IMG/VR virus record: IMGVR_UViG_3300036985_001490
Coordinates: 1 to 22,077 of that record
From: a virus
Direction: 5' to 3' (one strand)
DNA: 22,077 bases
The notes beneath the pieces are model-generated. The model did not search any database and had not been told where the DNA came from. It worked only from the letters and a program-made list of their open reading frames with translations. Below, piece after piece: positions 2,936-17,939 of the stretch; the stretch's first letter is position 1; each line of letters opens with the position of its first letter. The position numbers and the translations under genes were made by a program.

Positions 2936-5900
2936 ATGGCGGTTAAGAATATAATCTTCAAAATCGAGGCGGACGTTGCTTCTCTCAAAAGAGAACTTGC
3001 CGGGGTCAATACTTCGGTTGACAATACAGAAAAAAAAGTGACTTCTCTCGGAAAGGCTTTCTCTTTAGCGGGAGCGGCCTTCGGAGGAATCGCGATCGGA
3101 TCTCAATTCGCTGAATTGGCGAAGCAATCGATCAACGCGGCCGCGGCCTTTGAAACTCTTGAGATCTCTTTTTCTACTTTCTTAGGCTCGGCCGAAGAAG
3201 GGGCGCGGGTCCTCAAAGAATTAGAACAATTCTCTTTGAAAACTCCTTTCACTCCGGCGCAAGTCCAAGAGGCCGGAAAGGCGCTTCTTGCTTTTGGAGA
3301 ACCCGTTGAGAAGTTGACCGCTACTTTGAAAAATATCGGAGACATTTCGGCGGGAACCGGAAAGAATTTCAATGAGTTGGCCATAATTTACGGAAAGGCT
3401 CGAACTCAAGGGACTCTCTACGCGGAAGACATTAATCAATTGACCGAGGCCGGGATTCCGATCATTGACACTCTCGCGGAGTCTTTGGGAACTTCGGCCG
3501 GGAATATCAAGAAACTCGCTTCGGAAGGAAAGATCGGATTCTCGGATTTGGAAAAAGGATTCCGAACTCTTACTTCTTCAGGAGGTCAATTCGAAGGATT
3601 GACGGAAAAGTTGGCTCAATCTACGGCCGGAAGACTCTCAACTTTACAAGGTAACGCGGAAGCGATTCGCCGGTCTTTTGGTGAGAGCCTTCTTCCGGTC
3701 TTTGAAGTCCTGATCAATACGGCGACGCAAGTCCTTTCCTTCTTTGGGAACTTCAACTCAATACTTGAAGCAAATCGAGCGGCCTTCGCTGCGGTTGGAG
3801 CGGCAATCGCTTTGTCGGTTGGTGCGATGACAAGAGACATTCAACTCAAAGTCTTATCCAACGCGGTGACTCTTGCTTTGGCTATCAAGGAACGCGCTCT
3901 CGCGGTGGCGACAAACATAAAAACAACCGCAACAAGGATCGCGACAACGGCTTCGCAAGGAGCGACATTCGCGACTCGAGTTCAAACGGTGGCGACGGAA
4001 GTCGCAACAATTGCGACAAAAGGATTCAACGCGGCGATCAAGGCGAACCCGCTCGGGATCCTGATCACTCTTTTGACAACTGCGGCGATCTTATTTGTTG
4101 ACTTCGCGGACGCGGCGGACGCGTCGGCGACTCAAGTTGAAAGATTCGCGGACGGGGCGAAGGCCTTCGGAGAGTTTGAACAATCCTTCAAGAAGAACTT
4201 GAACGAAGAAAAGGCGGCTCTTGCTGCGAACGTCGAACAAATCAAAAAGTCGAACGCGGGATCTCAAGAAAGGGCCGTCCTGATCAAGAAACTCAATGAT
4301 CAATTCGGAACAACGCTCACCAATTTAACGGACGAGAAGAAATTCGTTGCGGCGCTTGAAGTGGCCTATCTTTCCGCGACGGAAGCAATCAAGAAGAAGG
4401 CTCTTGCTTCGGCGGGAGAGGAGGCCTTGACAAACCTATACAAAGAACAAATTCGACTCACCGAGATTCTCAACGCAAACCTCGAAGAGAAGAAAAAGAT
4501 CTCCGATTCGGTGAACGCTCAATTTGCAACTTCCGACGTTGCGGTTGACAAGATTATCGAATCAAGGACCGGAATTCAAACGGCTCAAATCAATAATTCC
4601 AAAAAGGAACTCGCTCTTGTCAATTCGGCGATCGATAAGATCTCAAAAAGAACGGCCGAAGCGATCGGAGGACCAACCGATCCGATCAACATTCCGGTTT
4701 CGGTTGAATTGATCAACTCCCGGGCTAAATTGGCGGCCGACTTGGAGAAAGAACTTCGCGGACTCAAGATTGATCTTTCACAACAAGGACCTTCTTTTGT
4801 CGATCCTAAAAACGTGGAGGAAGCAAAGAAACAAGCGAAGGATCTCGCGGACGTTGATCGCGCAAGAGTGGACGAGGAGATCAACAATCGAATCAAAGAG
4901 TTTAAAAATAACGAAACCTATACTTCAGCGACGGCGAAACTTTTGGACGATATCAAAAAGAAGAAACTCGAAATCATTGCAAACCAAGAGGCGAATCAAC
5001 TTCAGATTATTGATATCAACGCGGCGGAAAGAGACTCCAAGGCCTTGAGGTCAATTGAAGAGACAAGTTTTGAAGAGAAGATCTTTCTTGCGGAAGAATC
5101 CAACAAAAGACTCGAGGAACTTCAACAAGAATCACTTGACAAGTTATCCAAGGCGACAAAGGCCAAAGACAAAGAAACAATTCAATCCGAGATCAACGCG
5201 CGACTTGATTTGATTCGTCAGGGATTAGAGAAAGAAAGACAACTTCGGGAGGCGGCGATCATTGCTCAAAGAAACGCGGATCTCGGGAATGTGAAACTCT
5301 CCGAAAAAGAAAAGGCGGCGATCACGGCGAAATCAAACCTTGAGATCCTGAAGTTGAATCAAAACTATTTGGATAAAAAAACGGCGGCCGGAAAAGAGGC
5401 CGGAGCAAAAACAACCGAAGACGACCTCAAAGTTCAACAAGAGATTACTCAAGGAATAATCAATTTGACGAAGGAGTCTTTGAGCGCTTTGAAAGAAATT
5501 TCGGCCGCTCGAATTCAAGAGGCGGATCTTGCAATCTCCAACCAACAAAAGAGAGTTGAACGCGCCGCGAAACTTGCGGAAAATGGAAACGTCGCAATCC
5601 TCGAATCGGAACAAGAAAAACTTGACAACTTGGTCCGCGCTCGTCAACAATATGTCCGACAACAACAAGTCCTCGGCCTTATTGAAATGACAACCAACTC
5701 CGCAATCGCAATCTCAAAGGCTGCGGCGGAAGGTGGCGCGGCGGCTCCTTTCACAATTGCGGCGACATTGATCGCTCTTGCGGCGGGATTTGTCGCGGCA
5801 AAGGCTCAAGCACAAGCGGCGGGAGGATTTGAAAAGGGCGGTTATACCGGCGACGGTGCAAGAAGAGAACCGGCCGGAATCGTTCACAAAGGGGAATTTG

Positions 5901-13564: not shown

Positions 13565-15325
13565 ATGGACGACCAATTTTCAACCTCGATTCTCAAATTG
13601 ATTCGAGAAAAAGATTCTTTTATGAGTACCTCGGACAAGAGACTCTTGAAGAACTTCAATGAGATTGAAAAGTCGATTTATAAGGCCGTAAAAAAGACGA
13701 TCTCTTCGCTTAATCAAGAAGGAGGGAGGATTCTCTTTGATGAGAACAACACCGAGGAGATCAACAAGATCAACAAGATTATTCGAGACGCGATTCAAGG
13801 ATCTTCTTATCCTTCGGACGTCAAGACTTATCTCCGCGACTTTGATCAGGTGAAAGAATACAATCAAAAGACTCACGAAGAACTCAACGGGATCTCGAAC
13901 AAAGAATTCGAGAAGATTGTCGGACCAATTCAAAAGACGGTCGTTGATCAAACTCTTGAAGGATTGGTCGGGGCCGGAATCAACACCAACTTTTCGGATC
14001 CTCTTCGAAACGGACTCTTTCAGAATATCGTCTCCGGGACAACCTTTGAGAATCTTGAGTCTTTGATCTCTTCCTATATTTTAACCGATCCGGACAATTT
14101 GGGAAGGTTCAAAAGATACGTCGGACAAATTTCTCGCGACGCGCTCAACCAATACGACGGACAAGTCAACGCAAGAATCGCCGAAGATCTCGATCTCAAC
14201 GCGTTTCGATATGTTGGAAGTCTTATCGAGGACTCGCGTCCTCAATGTCGTCGTTGGGTTTTCAAGGAGATCCTTTTGAAAGAAAATCTTCCGGACGAGA
14301 TCGCTTGGGCCAACAACAACGGAACGGGAATGATCCCGGGAACCGACGAGAACAATTTCGCCGTCTATCGTGGAGGATACAATTGTCGACATTCGGCGAT
14401 TCCTTTCAAGATGACAAAGAGCCAAAGGGAACAACTCGGACTTCAGGAACAAAAACAAGAAGTCGAAGTTAATAATGTCGTTGATCAACAAATAAAAGAG
14501 ATCAGTCCTCAAAAGTCAATTGATAAGTCAATCCAAAAGATTGAAACGCAACAATCGCAAACGGCAAAAGTTGCGGACGGCTTGTTTTATAGTTCTCAAC
14601 CAATTGAAACGGTCAATTCGATGAATAACGTCCTTTTTAATACGGACGGAGTTGTTGACATTATCAATCAAGACAATGTCCGAATATTTCTTCGCAACAC
14701 AAAAGAATCAACTTCTCGGGGATATAAAACAATGAAGTCCGTCGAGGGAACGGTTCTTCCGACAAATTTTCGAGCGGCCAATATTTCAAAAAACTCGAAC
14801 GGAAATTGTTCAACAACGAATAGTTTTATGAATATTAAGATTTTGAAAGGAGAGAAGTCTGTTTTTGAAAAGATTGACATGAATTTCAACGAGTTGGATC
14901 ATGTTGACACAAGACTCACAACTTTCAACAATGATCAATATCTTATTTTTAATAAGACAATCGTTGCGCAGAAAAAGGGAGATCAGGATTGGAAATATTG
15001 GTCGGTGAGAGGGGCCTCAAATGCAAAAGGGAAAAAGAATGTCGCTCCGACAATCACTCACGAGGCCGGACATATATTCCAAAACAAATACGATCGGAGT
15101 TTGACGGTTTTCAATCGATTGATAAAAGAGAATGAACTCACTCTTCAAGACGCTCCAACGCTTTACGGAGAAACAAATTTTCGTGAGTTTTGGACCGAGT
15201 CTCTTACTTTTTATATTTATGACAACAAGACTCTCAAAGATAAAAATCCGAAGGTTTTCAAATTGGTTGAACAATACTTTTCAGAGTTTAACATTGATTT
15301 AAAAACGGTAAAACTTGCACCATGA
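13565..15325 (+). CDS. MuF-type head morphogenesis protein fused to HExxH metallopeptidase domain
   Basis: A 586-residue two-part protein. The N-terminal part (to about residue 285) is a minor head protein of the SPP1 gp7/Mu gpF type: a helical start, then the MuF core with SRPQC (C228) and GGYNCRHSAIPF (C274, R275, H276). Residues about 286-340 are a Gln/Lys-rich linker. The C-terminal domain has HEAGH at 499-503, an exact HExxH zinc-peptidase motif, followed about 40 residues later by TNFREFWTESLTFY (541-545), resembling the distal Glu helix of anthrax-lethal-factor-like minigluzincins. MuF proteins of temperate phages with variable C-terminal toxin domains are described, so this may be an effector carried in the head. 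A role in capsid maturation is the alternative. Its stop overlaps the next small gene (ATGA). Confidence 0.8.
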   Translation: MDDQFSTSILKLIREKDSFMSTSDKRLLKNFNEIEKSIYKAVKKTISSLNQEGGRILFDENNTEEINKINKIIRDAIQGSSYPSDVKTYLRDFDQVKEYNQKTHEELNGISNKEFEKIVGPIQKTVVDQTLEGLVGAGINTNFSDPLRNGLFQNIVSGTTFENLESLISSYILTDPDNLGRFKRYVGQISRDALNQYDGQVNARIAEDLDLNAFRYVGSLIEDSRPQCRRWVFKEILLKENLPDEIAWANNNGTGMIPGTDENNFAVYRGGYNCRHSAIPFKMTKSQREQLGLQEQKQEVEVNNVVDQQIKEISPQKSIDKSIQKIETQQSQTAKVADGLFYSSQPIETVNSMNNVLFNTDGVVDIINQDNVRIFLRNTKESTSRGYKTMKSVEGTVLPTNFRAANISKNSNGNCSTTNSFMNIKILKGEKSVFEKIDMNFNELDHVDTRLTTFNNDQYLIFNKTIVAQKKGDQDWKYWSVRGASNAKGKKNVAPTITHEAGHIFQNKYDRSLTVFNRLIKENELTLQDAPTLYGETNFREFWTESLTFYIYDNKTLKDKNPKVFKLVEQYFSEFNIDLKTVKLAP

Positions 15326-15921: not shown

Positions 15922-16743
15922 ATGAAGAACGTTGAAAGTTTTCTCAAAAAGATCGGTTTGAAACCTGATCAAATTACAACATTGATCGCTGAAGAGTCGG
16001 CGGACATTGATCCAATATTCAACTCTTTCAAGGCTTCTCAAAAGATCGCGATTTCAAACGATCCGGATTTCATTCAGTCGATAACGACCGAGATCAGGGG
16101 GACCGAACTATCAAAGGCGGAACACAAGATCCGAAAGACTTTCGGGTTGAGCGCTGAAGAAGTAAAAGAAAAGAAGTTCGACGAGATTATCTCAATCGCT
16201 TTTGATAAGGCGAAGAGTTCGGTTTCGGGAACTACGGAAGAACTTCAAAATCGTCTTGTTGCGGTTGCGGCCGAGAACAAAAGACTTCTCGAGGAAGTGA
16301 TCCCGGCAAAAGAAAAAGAGGCTTCTTCTGTGATCTCTTCTTTCAAAAAAGACGCGGCGATCCGTTCCTTTTTACTTGGGAAGGCTCCTTCTTTGACCAC
16401 AACTCCCGAAGTCCTTCTTCCGGCGATCAATTTGAATCTTTCTTCAAAGTACAATATTGACGTTGATCAGGAAGGAAAGATCGTTGTCAAGACAAAGGCG
16501 AATCTTGATCCATTGTCGAAAGACGGAACGAAAGTGATCGGTTTTGAGGATATCTTGAACGATCATATTGTTGAACTTGGAGTTGTGAAACAATCCAACG
16601 CGGGAGCGGGAGGGGCGAATCCGATCAAAGGACAAGAGAGAAAAGAGTTTTCAAACGATCCTCCGAAGTTCAACTTCCCGGGAATGAAGGCGGCCGCGGA
16701 TAATGTCGAAGCGATGAAAAATATGAAGACCTTCGGATCATAG
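15922..16743 (+). CDS. Putative capsid scaffolding protein
   Basis: A 273-residue protein directly upstream of the probable major capsid gene, where scaffolds lie in many tailed phages. It starts with a possible helical hairpin (VESFLKKIGLKPDQITTLIAEE). Residues about 95-150 form a coiled coil (TEELQNRLVAVAAENKRLLEEV and KEKEASSVISSFKKD). The C-terminus (about 220-273) is a Gly/Pro/Ala/Asn/Lys-rich flexible tail ending in a helix, similar to the capsid-binding ends of scaffolds. No peptidase motif is visible, so it is more likely a pure scaffold than a protease-scaffold fusion. The assignment rests on coiled-coil content and position. Confidence 0.6.
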   Translation: MKNVESFLKKIGLKPDQITTLIAEESADIDPIFNSFKASQKIAISNDPDFIQSITTEIRGTELSKAEHKIRKTFGLSAEEVKEKKFDEIISIAFDKAKSSVSGTTEELQNRLVAVAAENKRLLEEVIPAKEKEASSVISSFKKDAAIRSFLLGKAPSLTTTPEVLLPAINLNLSSKYNIDVDQEGKIVVKTKANLDPLSKDGTKVIGFEDILNDHIVELGVVKQSNAGAGGANPIKGQERKEFSNDPPKFNFPGMKAAADNVEAMKNMKTFGS

Positions 16744-16754
16744 AAATAAATTCA

Positions 16755-16762
16755 TATATTTG
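16755..16762 (+). promoter_or_regulatory. Bacteroidetes-type -7 promoter element (TATATTTG) for the capsid gene
   Basis: TATATTTG is an exact TAnnTTTG match, 12 bases after the scaffold stop. A TTCG 19 bases upstream may be a weak -33 element. The start of transcription would fall at about 16767-16769, on or next to the ATG at 16768, so the transcript would be leaderless for the small leader reading frame and would carry about 150 bases of leader before the capsid ATG at 16920. Confidence 0.6.
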
Positions 16763-16767
16763 TCACC

Positions 16768-16860
16768 ATGTTGGGCCGGAGGGCCGTAAACTCACAACCG
16801 GGGACCGAGACTCCCTTTCAGTCTCAACCGGATCCGATCAATCGGATTTCAAAAGATTGA
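16768..16860 (+). CDS. Candidate leaderless 30-residue leader peptide
   Basis: The ATG at 16768 lies five bases after a consensus -7 element and opens 30 codons ending at TGA 16858-16860. The peptide begins MLGRRAVNSQPGTETPFQSQ and ends DPINRISKD; it is hydrophilic, without a signal or membrane segment. The reading frame runs through both small hairpins and stops just before the closing strand of the putative three-way junction. Its translation could therefore control folding of the capsid leader. It may instead be a chance frame across a structured RNA; codon evidence in 30 codons is too small to decide. Confidence 0.3.
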   Translation: MLGRRAVNSQPGTETPFQSQPDPINRISKD

Positions 16861-16869
16861 TCTTGTGAG
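16774..16869 (+). promoter_or_regulatory. Structured 5' leader of the capsid gene (putative three-way junction)
   Basis: Four inverted repeats can pair in the + strand transcript. GGCC 16774-16777 pairs with GGCC 16782-16785 (loop GGAG). CTCACAA 16791-16797 pairs with TTGTGAG 16863-16869 and encloses two hairpins: GAGACT 16807-16812 with AGTCTC 16820-16825 (seven-base loop) and ATCCGA 16832-16837 with TCGGAT 16842-16847 (loop TCAA). The sequence CAACCGG is repeated at 16795 and 16825. The enclosing stem can extend by AAA (16788-16790) with TTT (16873-16875) across a bulge. No known riboswitch or tRNA is recognisable. It is probably an untranslated regulatory structure for capsid expression, or overlaps the leader peptide frame. 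Confidence 0.5.
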
Positions 16870-16876
16870 CGGTTTA

Positions 16877-16916
16877 AAATTCAAATTCAAATTCTAAACT
16901 CTTTTAAAAACTCTTT
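16877..16916 (+). repeat. Short direct repeats in the capsid gene leader
   Basis: Three perfect tandem copies of AAATTC occupy 16877-16894. Two copies of AACTCTTT follow at 16897-16904 and 16909-16916, 12 bases apart, the second ending three bases before the capsid ATG. The block is A/T-rich and lies between the structured leader and the start codon. It may be a ribosome standby region or a protein-binding operator. Confidence 0.5.
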
Positions 16917-16919
16917 ACA

Positions 16920-17939
16920 ATGGCTTATACTGAAGGACTATGTTCCAAACTTCAAGCAAATCTTGTTGACATTGCGGGTTATAACGCTCCGGCGCTTAAC
17001 CGTCAAAAAGTTGGTTTTATTGATGCTCTTATGAGTGATATCAATCGAATCAATATCAGAACCGAAATCGTCCCAACGAACGGAAAATTCCGTGCGGTTC
17101 AAATTAACTATCAAAGTCAGGCTTGTGACGATGATGTTTCAACGGATCCAACTCCGAATTGTACGACTTCACTTGCTCCGGCTCCTTCCGAGGCTTTGAT
17201 CACTTCTTTCGATGTGGCAAAGTACAAGATGAAGTTCGCCGAGAACGACATGAGAAAATTATGTGAGGCGGATTCGGTTTGGGTTGGTCAAAATATAATG
17301 AGAGCGATGAACGCCGTGAACATGAAAGTTGACAAGTTGATTCTTGCAACTCAAGCGGCGAACATGGGGACATTTGCGGACGGATCAGTTTCGAAAGATA
17401 TTCCTTTGTTTAACTCAACAACTCAAGGTCCTAACGCAATGGCTTGGGCGGGAATTCGTCACTATTACGATGAGTTAGGCGCGGCTTCAACTCCTTTAAT
17501 CGTTGGCGGAGGTTCAATCGATTTATACGCAAAGGCTCAACAAATCGCTTGTTGCAATTCAACGGTTGGAATGGATTTGGCAAGAATGACGGGCGACGGG
17601 TACTTTTACAATGATGTGAACGTGAACTCGGTTTTTGATCCGACTCAATTCATTGTCTTGGCTCCGGGTGCGGTTCAATTAGTGACTTGGAACAAATATC
17701 TTGGCGACTACGCGAAGAGAAGTGATTCTTTCGAACACGGGACAATCGTTGATCCTTTCACGGGCTTGGTTTACGACTTAAAGACTTCTTATGATGATTG
17801 TACTGAATCTTGGTACGTTGAGTTGGCTTTGAATTATAACTTGTTTCAAGTTCCGGCGGCTTTCTGTGTTGATGCGGGAGTGAATATGTCACTTTTATTC
17901 GAAGATTGTTCAACTTCTCCAATTGGTTGTGGAGGTTAA
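16920..17939 (+). CDS. Probable major capsid protein
   Basis: A 339-residue protein with size, composition and context of a major capsid protein: it follows portal, MuF and scaffold genes and has its own strong-looking promoter and long leader. The sequence is balanced, without signal or membrane segments. Landmarks are GYNAPALNRQKVGFIDALMSDINRINI near the N-terminus, AKYKMKFAENDMRKLCEADSV in the middle and FIVLAPGAVQLVTWNKYLGDY followed by EHGTIVDPFTGLVYDL in the C-terminal third. Such late segments are typical of the HK97-fold A-domain and spine. Ten or so cysteines (for example ACCN and CDDD) are unusual for a capsid protein. I could not confirm the fold by eye; another abundant virion protein remains possible. 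Confidence 0.7.
   Translation: MAYTEGLCSKLQANLVDIAGYNAPALNRQKVGFIDALMSDINRINIRTEIVPTNGKFRAVQINYQSQACDDDVSTDPTPNCTTSLAPAPSEALITSFDVAKYKMKFAENDMRKLCEADSVWVGQNIMRAMNAVNMKVDKLILATQAANMGTFADGSVSKDIPLFNSTTQGPNAMAWAGIRHYYDELGAASTPLIVGGGSIDLYAKAQQIACCNSTVGMDLARMTGDGYFYNDVNVNSVFDPTQFIVLAPGAVQLVTWNKYLGDYAKRSDSFEHGTIVDPFTGLVYDLKTSYDDCTESWYVELALNYNLFQVPAAFCVDAGVNMSLLFEDCSTSPIGCGG

Follow-up and report, generated by a model that had tools for sequence, protein, structure and literature searches.

The textbook case of a pseudoknot in a phage leader is that of T4 gene 32, and to our knowledge pseudoknots in the mRNA leaders of tailed phages are rarely described. Stabilizers of mRNA 5' ends such as the ompA leader consist of hairpins located close to the 5' end of the message of a very highly expressed envelope gene. 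The gene 32 leader provides a precedent for the combination of an end-proximal knot, an A+U-rich leader and a stable mRNA (PMC3014915; PMC535899). Knots in tandem are known from the ToxI antitoxins, where they lie behind a promoter and are followed by a terminator before the toxin gene (PMC8860590).

The locus described here shares elements with both systems. It lies in a virus record of 22,077 bases, which was analyzed as a whole and is referred to as the window. Between the stop codon of an upstream gene, ending at 16743, and the capsid ATG at 16920 lies a gap of 176 bases, the longest between the main open reading frames. We consider it very probable that the leader filling this gap is an RNA element, not described so far, that controls production of the virus shell.

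A chain of pseudoknots in front of the capsid gene

The leader of the window can be read as a chain of three H-type pseudoknots (pk0, pk1 and pk2), found with a parser which sought chains of such knots in the order S1, L1, S2, S1', an A-rich L3 and S2'. The features of the region are as follows.

15922-16743, + strand: upstream gene, probably a scaffold gene, judging only from its position, size and charged sequence
16755-16762, + strand: promoter-like box TATATTTG, a match to TAnnTTTG
16768-16860, + strand: ATG (16768-16770) and 30-codon open reading frame MLGRRAVNSQPGTETPFQSQPDPINRISKD with TGA at 16858-16860, judged not to be a gene
16774-16785, + strand: GGCC/GGCC pairing
16774-16793, + strand: pk0, with S1 16774-16777/16782-16785, L1 G, S2 16779-16781/16791-16793 and L3 GUAAA (GGCC-G-GAG-GGCC-GUAAA-CUC)
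16791-16797, + strand: 5' strand of the enclosing stem P1, CTCACAA, overlapping S2' of pk0
16800-16825, + strand: pk1, with S1 16800-16804/16812-16816, S2 16807-16811/16821-16825 and L3 UUCA (GGGGA-CC-GAGAC-UCCCU-UUCA-GUCUC)
16830-16861, + strand: pk2, with S1 16830-16835/16844-16849 (outer pairs G-U), L1 G, S2 16837-16843/16855-16861 and L3 CAAAA (GGAUCC-G-AUCAAUC-GGAUUU-CAAAA-GAUUGAU)
16862-16919, + strand: A+U-rich spacer (26% G+C) up to the capsid start codon, with AAATTC three times and AACTCTTT twice
16863-16869, + strand: 3' strand of P1, TTGTGAG, pairing with CTCACAA
16920-17939, + strand: major capsid protein gene of HK97 fold, as predicted by a structure model, Foldseek and VIA-align

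All features listed in the first-pass annotation, namely the box TATATTTG, the ATG, the 30-codon frame, the stem, the hairpins, the repeats (AAATTC three times at 16877-16894, and both copies of AACTCTTT) and the 176-base gap, were recovered at their positions. That annotation had interpreted the leader as a three-way junction. Its pairings are indeed present; the GGCC hairpin and the two six-pair hairpins, however, are each one helix of a pseudoknot, and the arms of the supposed junction are the pseudoknots themselves. Hammerhead, HDV-like and twister ribozyme readings of the junction were dropped, as there was neither a conserved core nor an Rfam match.

A nested fold of positions 16764-16919 reaches -40.5 kcal/mol (z -2.46), which 3 of 200 shuffled sequences equal, and on its own beats chance modestly, without being dramatic. 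The chain of pseudoknots scores 50.1, compared with 33.6 for the best of 2,000 dinucleotide shuffles, none of which matches it, and it is the top three-knot chain of the 22 kb window. Since the runner-up, which lies within coding sequence, attains 45.1, the score alone is no proof, and it is the comparative evidence that carries the case.

Conservation of the array in related leaders

Leaders were gathered upstream of related capsid genes, and 44 non-redundant ones were parsed. All 40 of their own shuffles are outscored by 29 of 38 leaders, the remainder being mostly cut, mis-parsed or weak; these per-leader scores are approximate, as the three-knot parser overlooked two leaders (L019, L045) and assigned a wrong last knot in some others (e.g., L039, L040, L054-L056). 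The covariation that the first-pass annotation had proposed to look for is found in the knots of relatives, in the form of compensatory changes on both sides of a pair. It is clearest in alignment A4, which comprises 15 relatives aligned by sequence only, with the knots taken from one member. Here, 92.7% of the cells pair as compared with 80.9% after shuffling, 10 of the 21 pairs have changed on both sides (4.8 expected), and none of 500 shuffles attains the covariation score of 0.311 (0.085 shuffled); when the partners are shifted by one base, pairing falls to 45-53%. Agreement is weaker in the subgroup A8, with 88.9% versus 85.1% pairing and a score of 0.195 versus 0.137. The sequence-only alignment of the window and its nearest relatives (A5) is too poor for pair counts, and the compensatory evidence therefore comes from other subgroups, together with the per-leader shuffle test.

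Additionally, pk0 and pk1 were curated by eye in 35 leaders each; their pairing as such is thus given by construction, and it is the diversity of the paired strands that is informative. The curated stems comprise 19-29 distinct sequences, and a 5' strand fully pairs with the 3' strand of another leader in just 9-26% of cases. The S2 stem of pk0, for instance, is GAG/CUC in the window and GCG/CGC, UCG/CGA, GCA/UGC, GAA/UUC or CGG/CCG in relatives. Loop L3 of the curated knots consists of 62-71% A and usually ends in AA; beyond this A-richness, no conservation of loop sequence was seen across the leaders, which indicates a role exerted by shape. At the level of sequence comparison, these data establish the pseudoknots and their conservation, and indicate that the shape of the array has long been kept in the relatives while its letters changed. 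The earlier view of the leader as a structured RNA under selection and tied to the capsid gene is thereby upheld, by the shuffle tests as well as by the two-sided changes. Variants of pk0 exist: the leaders L003-L008 lack its second stem and carry a plain hairpin (GGCC-AAAGAA-GGCC or GGAC-AAAGAA-GUCC), and loop L3 of L052, L055 and L056 contains a small inserted hairpin (GAUCGUUUGAUC or GAUAAUUUUAUC).

The enclosing stem CTCACAA/TTGTGAG (P1) fared less well. It clashes only with S2 of pk0, so that pk1 and pk2 could form alongside it. The stem of the window outdoes those of shuffled sequences (P 0.017) and has such counterparts in some relatives (L009, L010, L011, L031 and L097), but not in most, and no two-sided compensatory changes were found where they could be counted (alignment A7). 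Being uneven across lineages and free of such changes in A7, P1 was rejected as a conserved core helix and is regarded as no more than a possible alternative pairing.

The S1' strand of the last knot (pk2) doubles, in many relatives, as the 5' arm of a long terminator-like hairpin. Long U runs follow the hairpin in the L036-L051, L019 and L002 lineages and shorter ones elsewhere, those of L009, L010, L025, L029 and L017 being weak. The three strands involved change together, as GGGA/UCCC/GGGA, GGGU/ACCC/GGGU, GGGCU/AGCCC/GGGCU or CGGG/CCCG/CGGG. The hairpin also has two-sided changes of its own (pairing 75.9% versus 64.3% and score 0.344 versus 0.156 in one alignment; a second count gives 91.5% versus 83.6% pairing). 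As the last knot and the hairpin share one strand, they are mutually exclusive, as in an attenuator. No such hairpin is present in the window, L012, L059, L052-L056, L060-L068, L076 or L141.

The capsid gene, its predicted promoter and the spread of the array

The gene downstream of the leader was assigned by its predicted fold, as no match to PHROGs, Pfam or PADLOC was obtained for 16920-17939. A model built from 12 related sequences (pLDDT 70.9, pTM 0.73) has HK97-fold capsid proteins as its top Foldseek matches, and the highest VIA-align score (Z 14.4 over 267 residues) is to the capsid protein of mycobacteriophage Douge. On the basis of this model, the gene encodes an HK97-fold major capsid protein, in agreement with its first naming as a capsid gene. 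The gene before the leader (15922-16743) had no family match above the cut-off; relatives carry a gene of 270-306 codons just upstream, which often ends in ...TFGK/Q. Further upstream, between the tail-side and the capsid genes, positions 13565-15325 of the window encode a large protein that has no PHROGs match and bears a zinc-metalloprotease-like motif, THEAGHIFQ, near its C-terminus. The capsid proteins of distant relatives (L060-L068, with genes starting at about 3760-3860, and L076, at 2815) are extended at the N-terminus by a hydrophobic segment of about 50-70 residues, which the window protein does not have.

The motif TAnnTTTG corresponds to the -7 box of Bacteroidota promoters and is a putative promoter element here. 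Among the 44 leaders, 21 have it no more than 60 nt ahead of pk0, as compared with about 1.5 predicted by its density in the collected loci. The box ends 11 nt before pk0 in the window and 5-7 nt before it in nine relatives; in seven leaders the distance is exactly 5 nt. In leaders with a box, the capsid mRNA should thus start just before pk0. The L033-L056, L100 and L117 lineages have no TAnnTTTG box, and their pk0 begins a few nucleotides after the previous stop codon; a simple role as a 5' cap therefore does not cover all cases. Judging from the promoter box alone, the hosts are probably Bacteroidota. The last 40 nt ahead of the capsid ATG have a median G+C content of 17.5% across the leaders.

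Almost every relative whose leader is complete carries two to three tandem knots ahead of the HK97-fold capsid gene. The array reaches distant relatives (L060-L068, L076) and L141; in L141, 3 nt separate the last knot from the ATG, and the capsid protein is 25% identical to the A2 query. No array is present in L138, where the gap measures 24 bases, and none was clearly seen in L135. Capsid relatives were found in IMG/VR only: INPHARED yielded none for the window, L066, L138 or L141, and the genome contigs of GTDB none. The first-pass annotation knew of no described element of this form, and the searches agree with it. Rfam 15 gave no match to the window at the gathering threshold and nothing meaningful at E up to 10, and among 13 relatives no family exceeded the threshold except tRNAs in L067, a distant relative with six tRNA genes in a row further upstream (L067:1186-1747). 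A tandem-knot capsid leader was not found in the open-access papers searched either.

Pattern scans for pk0-like sequence returned the known leaders, together with coincidences in coding sequence (L218, L221, L223, L225, L233). One further match, L209, belongs to an unrelated phage, the relatives of which showed repeated hairpins in actinophages, a different element. In these unrelated phages, one uncultured and the others being Streptomyces Raleigh and SV1, Gordonia GMA1 and Rhodococcus REQ3, a row of two or three hairpins with identical loops occupies the gap before the presumed scaffold gene, which adjoins the major capsid gene (L209:4098-4220 on the minus strand, L236:960-1030, L237:930-1026, L238:1080-1190 and L239:1100-1190). 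Examples are the GCCGAAUGGC repeats in REQ3, CAGGA loops in Raleigh and GACG loops in L209. Such rows are perhaps another kind of capsid-operon RNA operator.

Possible functions and comparison with known systems

The fixed position of the array before one particular gene suggests that it acts in cis on the expression of the capsid gene. With moderate confidence, we read 16755-16919 as a promoter box and a cis-acting three-pseudoknot leader of the capsid mRNA, the most likely function of which would be to shield the message physically. Three H-type pseudoknots would lie at or near the mRNA 5' end, and the A+U-rich stretch between them and the start codon would be unstructured. Closely packed near the end, or in other lineages just behind the previous stop codon, the knots would guard the capsid mRNA against decay and leave the start region accessible, and they could offer a site at which a phage or host factor adjusts the shielding. 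In relatives with the shared-strand hairpin, the leader would probably be an attenuator in addition, with the last knot as anti-terminator. Three points favor end protection in the window: the proximity of the array to the predicted 5' end, the freedom of its loop sequences, and the large amounts in which the gene product is needed. Against stabilization stand the terminator-like hairpin that many relatives carry before the capsid gene, which suggests regulation instead, the last knot of L141, which at 3 nt from the ATG would hinder ribosomes, and L138 and apparently L135, which do without an array.

Protection of the mRNA end, a bound protein and attenuation are not mutually exclusive, and the confidence given to each overlaps with that of the others; the latter two are strong rivals. 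By analogy with T4 gene 32, a phage protein, perhaps the capsid, scaffold or a single-strand binding protein, may bind the knots first, then spread over the A+U-rich repeats and block ribosomes, thus providing feedback on capsid synthesis. We hold this translational operator to be possible, if tentative: the layout of 5' knots and a short-repeat, A+U-rich stretch up to the ribosome binding region is shared, a series of knots would lend itself to cooperative binding, and the last knot of L141 abuts the start codon, but the gene encodes a capsid protein rather than a single-strand binding protein, the repeats of the spacer show no obvious conservation in relatives, and A+U-rich start regions are commonplace in Bacteroidota. 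Attenuation was among the functions first proposed for the leader. In a transcription attenuator, pk2 would compete as anti-terminator with the terminator hairpin, and the extent to which RNA polymerase reads into the capsid gene would be decided by a signal to which the knots respond. The shared strand of pk2 and the hairpin, the U runs that often follow, the co-changing triples and the hairpin's own two-sided changes make this plausible in many relatives. The window leader has no terminator, and with the hairpin also missing from several lineages, attenuation cannot be the general function; weak U runs in five leaders, and the need for a terminator before the most needed late gene to be conditional, further reduce this to a reading that we regard as possible, if tentative.

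That the leader gives rise to a trans-acting small RNA akin to a type III antitoxin, with knots (sometimes closed by a terminator) that serve as decoys for a host ToxN-type endoribonuclease, appears quite unlikely. The order of tandem H-type pseudoknots, in many relatives a terminator-like hairpin, and a gene is that of toxIN (PMC8860590), and the four-pair S1 and A-rich L3 are similar; yet the units within one leader are not sequence repeats (only AAATTC was found), the stems vary freely between relatives whereas the core of the ToxI repeat is conserved in sequence, a capsid gene lies downstream, and five neighboring genes have no PADLOC match. The leaderless 30-residue peptide of the first-pass annotation, to which control or attenuation of capsid synthesis might be ascribed, is most improbable. 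Its ATG stands five bases after TATATTTG and opens a 30-codon frame, but neither is kept at that place in relatives: the ATG is absent in L009 and L010, and the frame has 4 codons in L029 and 11 in L002. Moreover, the frame crosses all three knots, where the stems vary in compensatory fashion and not as codons, and the peptide was rejected as a gene. Going beyond end protection, we also consider, as a speculative possibility, a new class of phage regulatory RNA, i.e., a capsid-dedicated array of tandem pseudoknots in an uncultured group that probably infects Bacteroidota, in which the last knot would act in many lineages as anti-terminator against a terminator of the capsid gene, and the status of assembly or a phage factor would set capsid output by way of RNA folding.

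What distinguishes this element is the presence of two to three knots in a row before a capsid gene, with little sequence conservation, in a phage group of which no named member was found in INPHARED. The leaders offer a ready-made set of compensatory data and a testable model of how capsid output is set, and the lineages with and without the terminator-like hairpin provide natural comparisons.

Among known RNAs, the ompA-type leader is likewise structured close to the 5' end of its mRNA, ahead of an envelope or shell gene with very high expression; it consists of hairpins, whereas pseudoknots are kept here across a whole phage group. The pseudoknot chain of tmRNA resembles the array in having several H-type pseudoknots in a row within one bacterial-type RNA, but there is no tRNA-like domain or tag here, and ARAGORN finds no tmRNA in the window. 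Riboswitch-like leaders with alternative anti-terminator and terminator are similar to those many relatives in which pk2 and the hairpin share a strand; unlike them, the window has no terminator, no conserved aptamer-like loop sequence and no Rfam match. With type III antitoxin RNAs (ToxI, and also CptI and TenpI) the leader has in common the tandem H-type pseudoknots behind a promoter and, in many relatives although not in the window, a terminator-like hairpin between array and gene. It differs from them in that Tandem Repeats Finder detects no array of near-identical repeats, only the three AAATTC copies outside the knots, in that no conserved single-stranded cleavage site is seen, and in that an HK97-fold capsid protein instead of an endoribonuclease is predicted downstream. 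The gene 32 leaders of T4, T2 and RB69, also from tailed phages, have an H-type pseudoknot near the mRNA 5' end and an unstructured A+U-rich stretch of short repeats up to the ribosome binding site (PMC535899; PMC3014915). Both features are found in the window, where the 5' end is predicted from the promoter box and the repeats run to the start codon. The T4 leader has one knot instead of two to three, its gene encodes the single-strand binding protein that itself binds the knot and not an HK97-fold capsid protein, and no alternative terminator-like hairpin has been described there. The window thus shares some features of the gene 32 leader and of ToxI and lacks defining ones of both, and the element belongs with the pseudoknotted mRNA leaders, a known kind.
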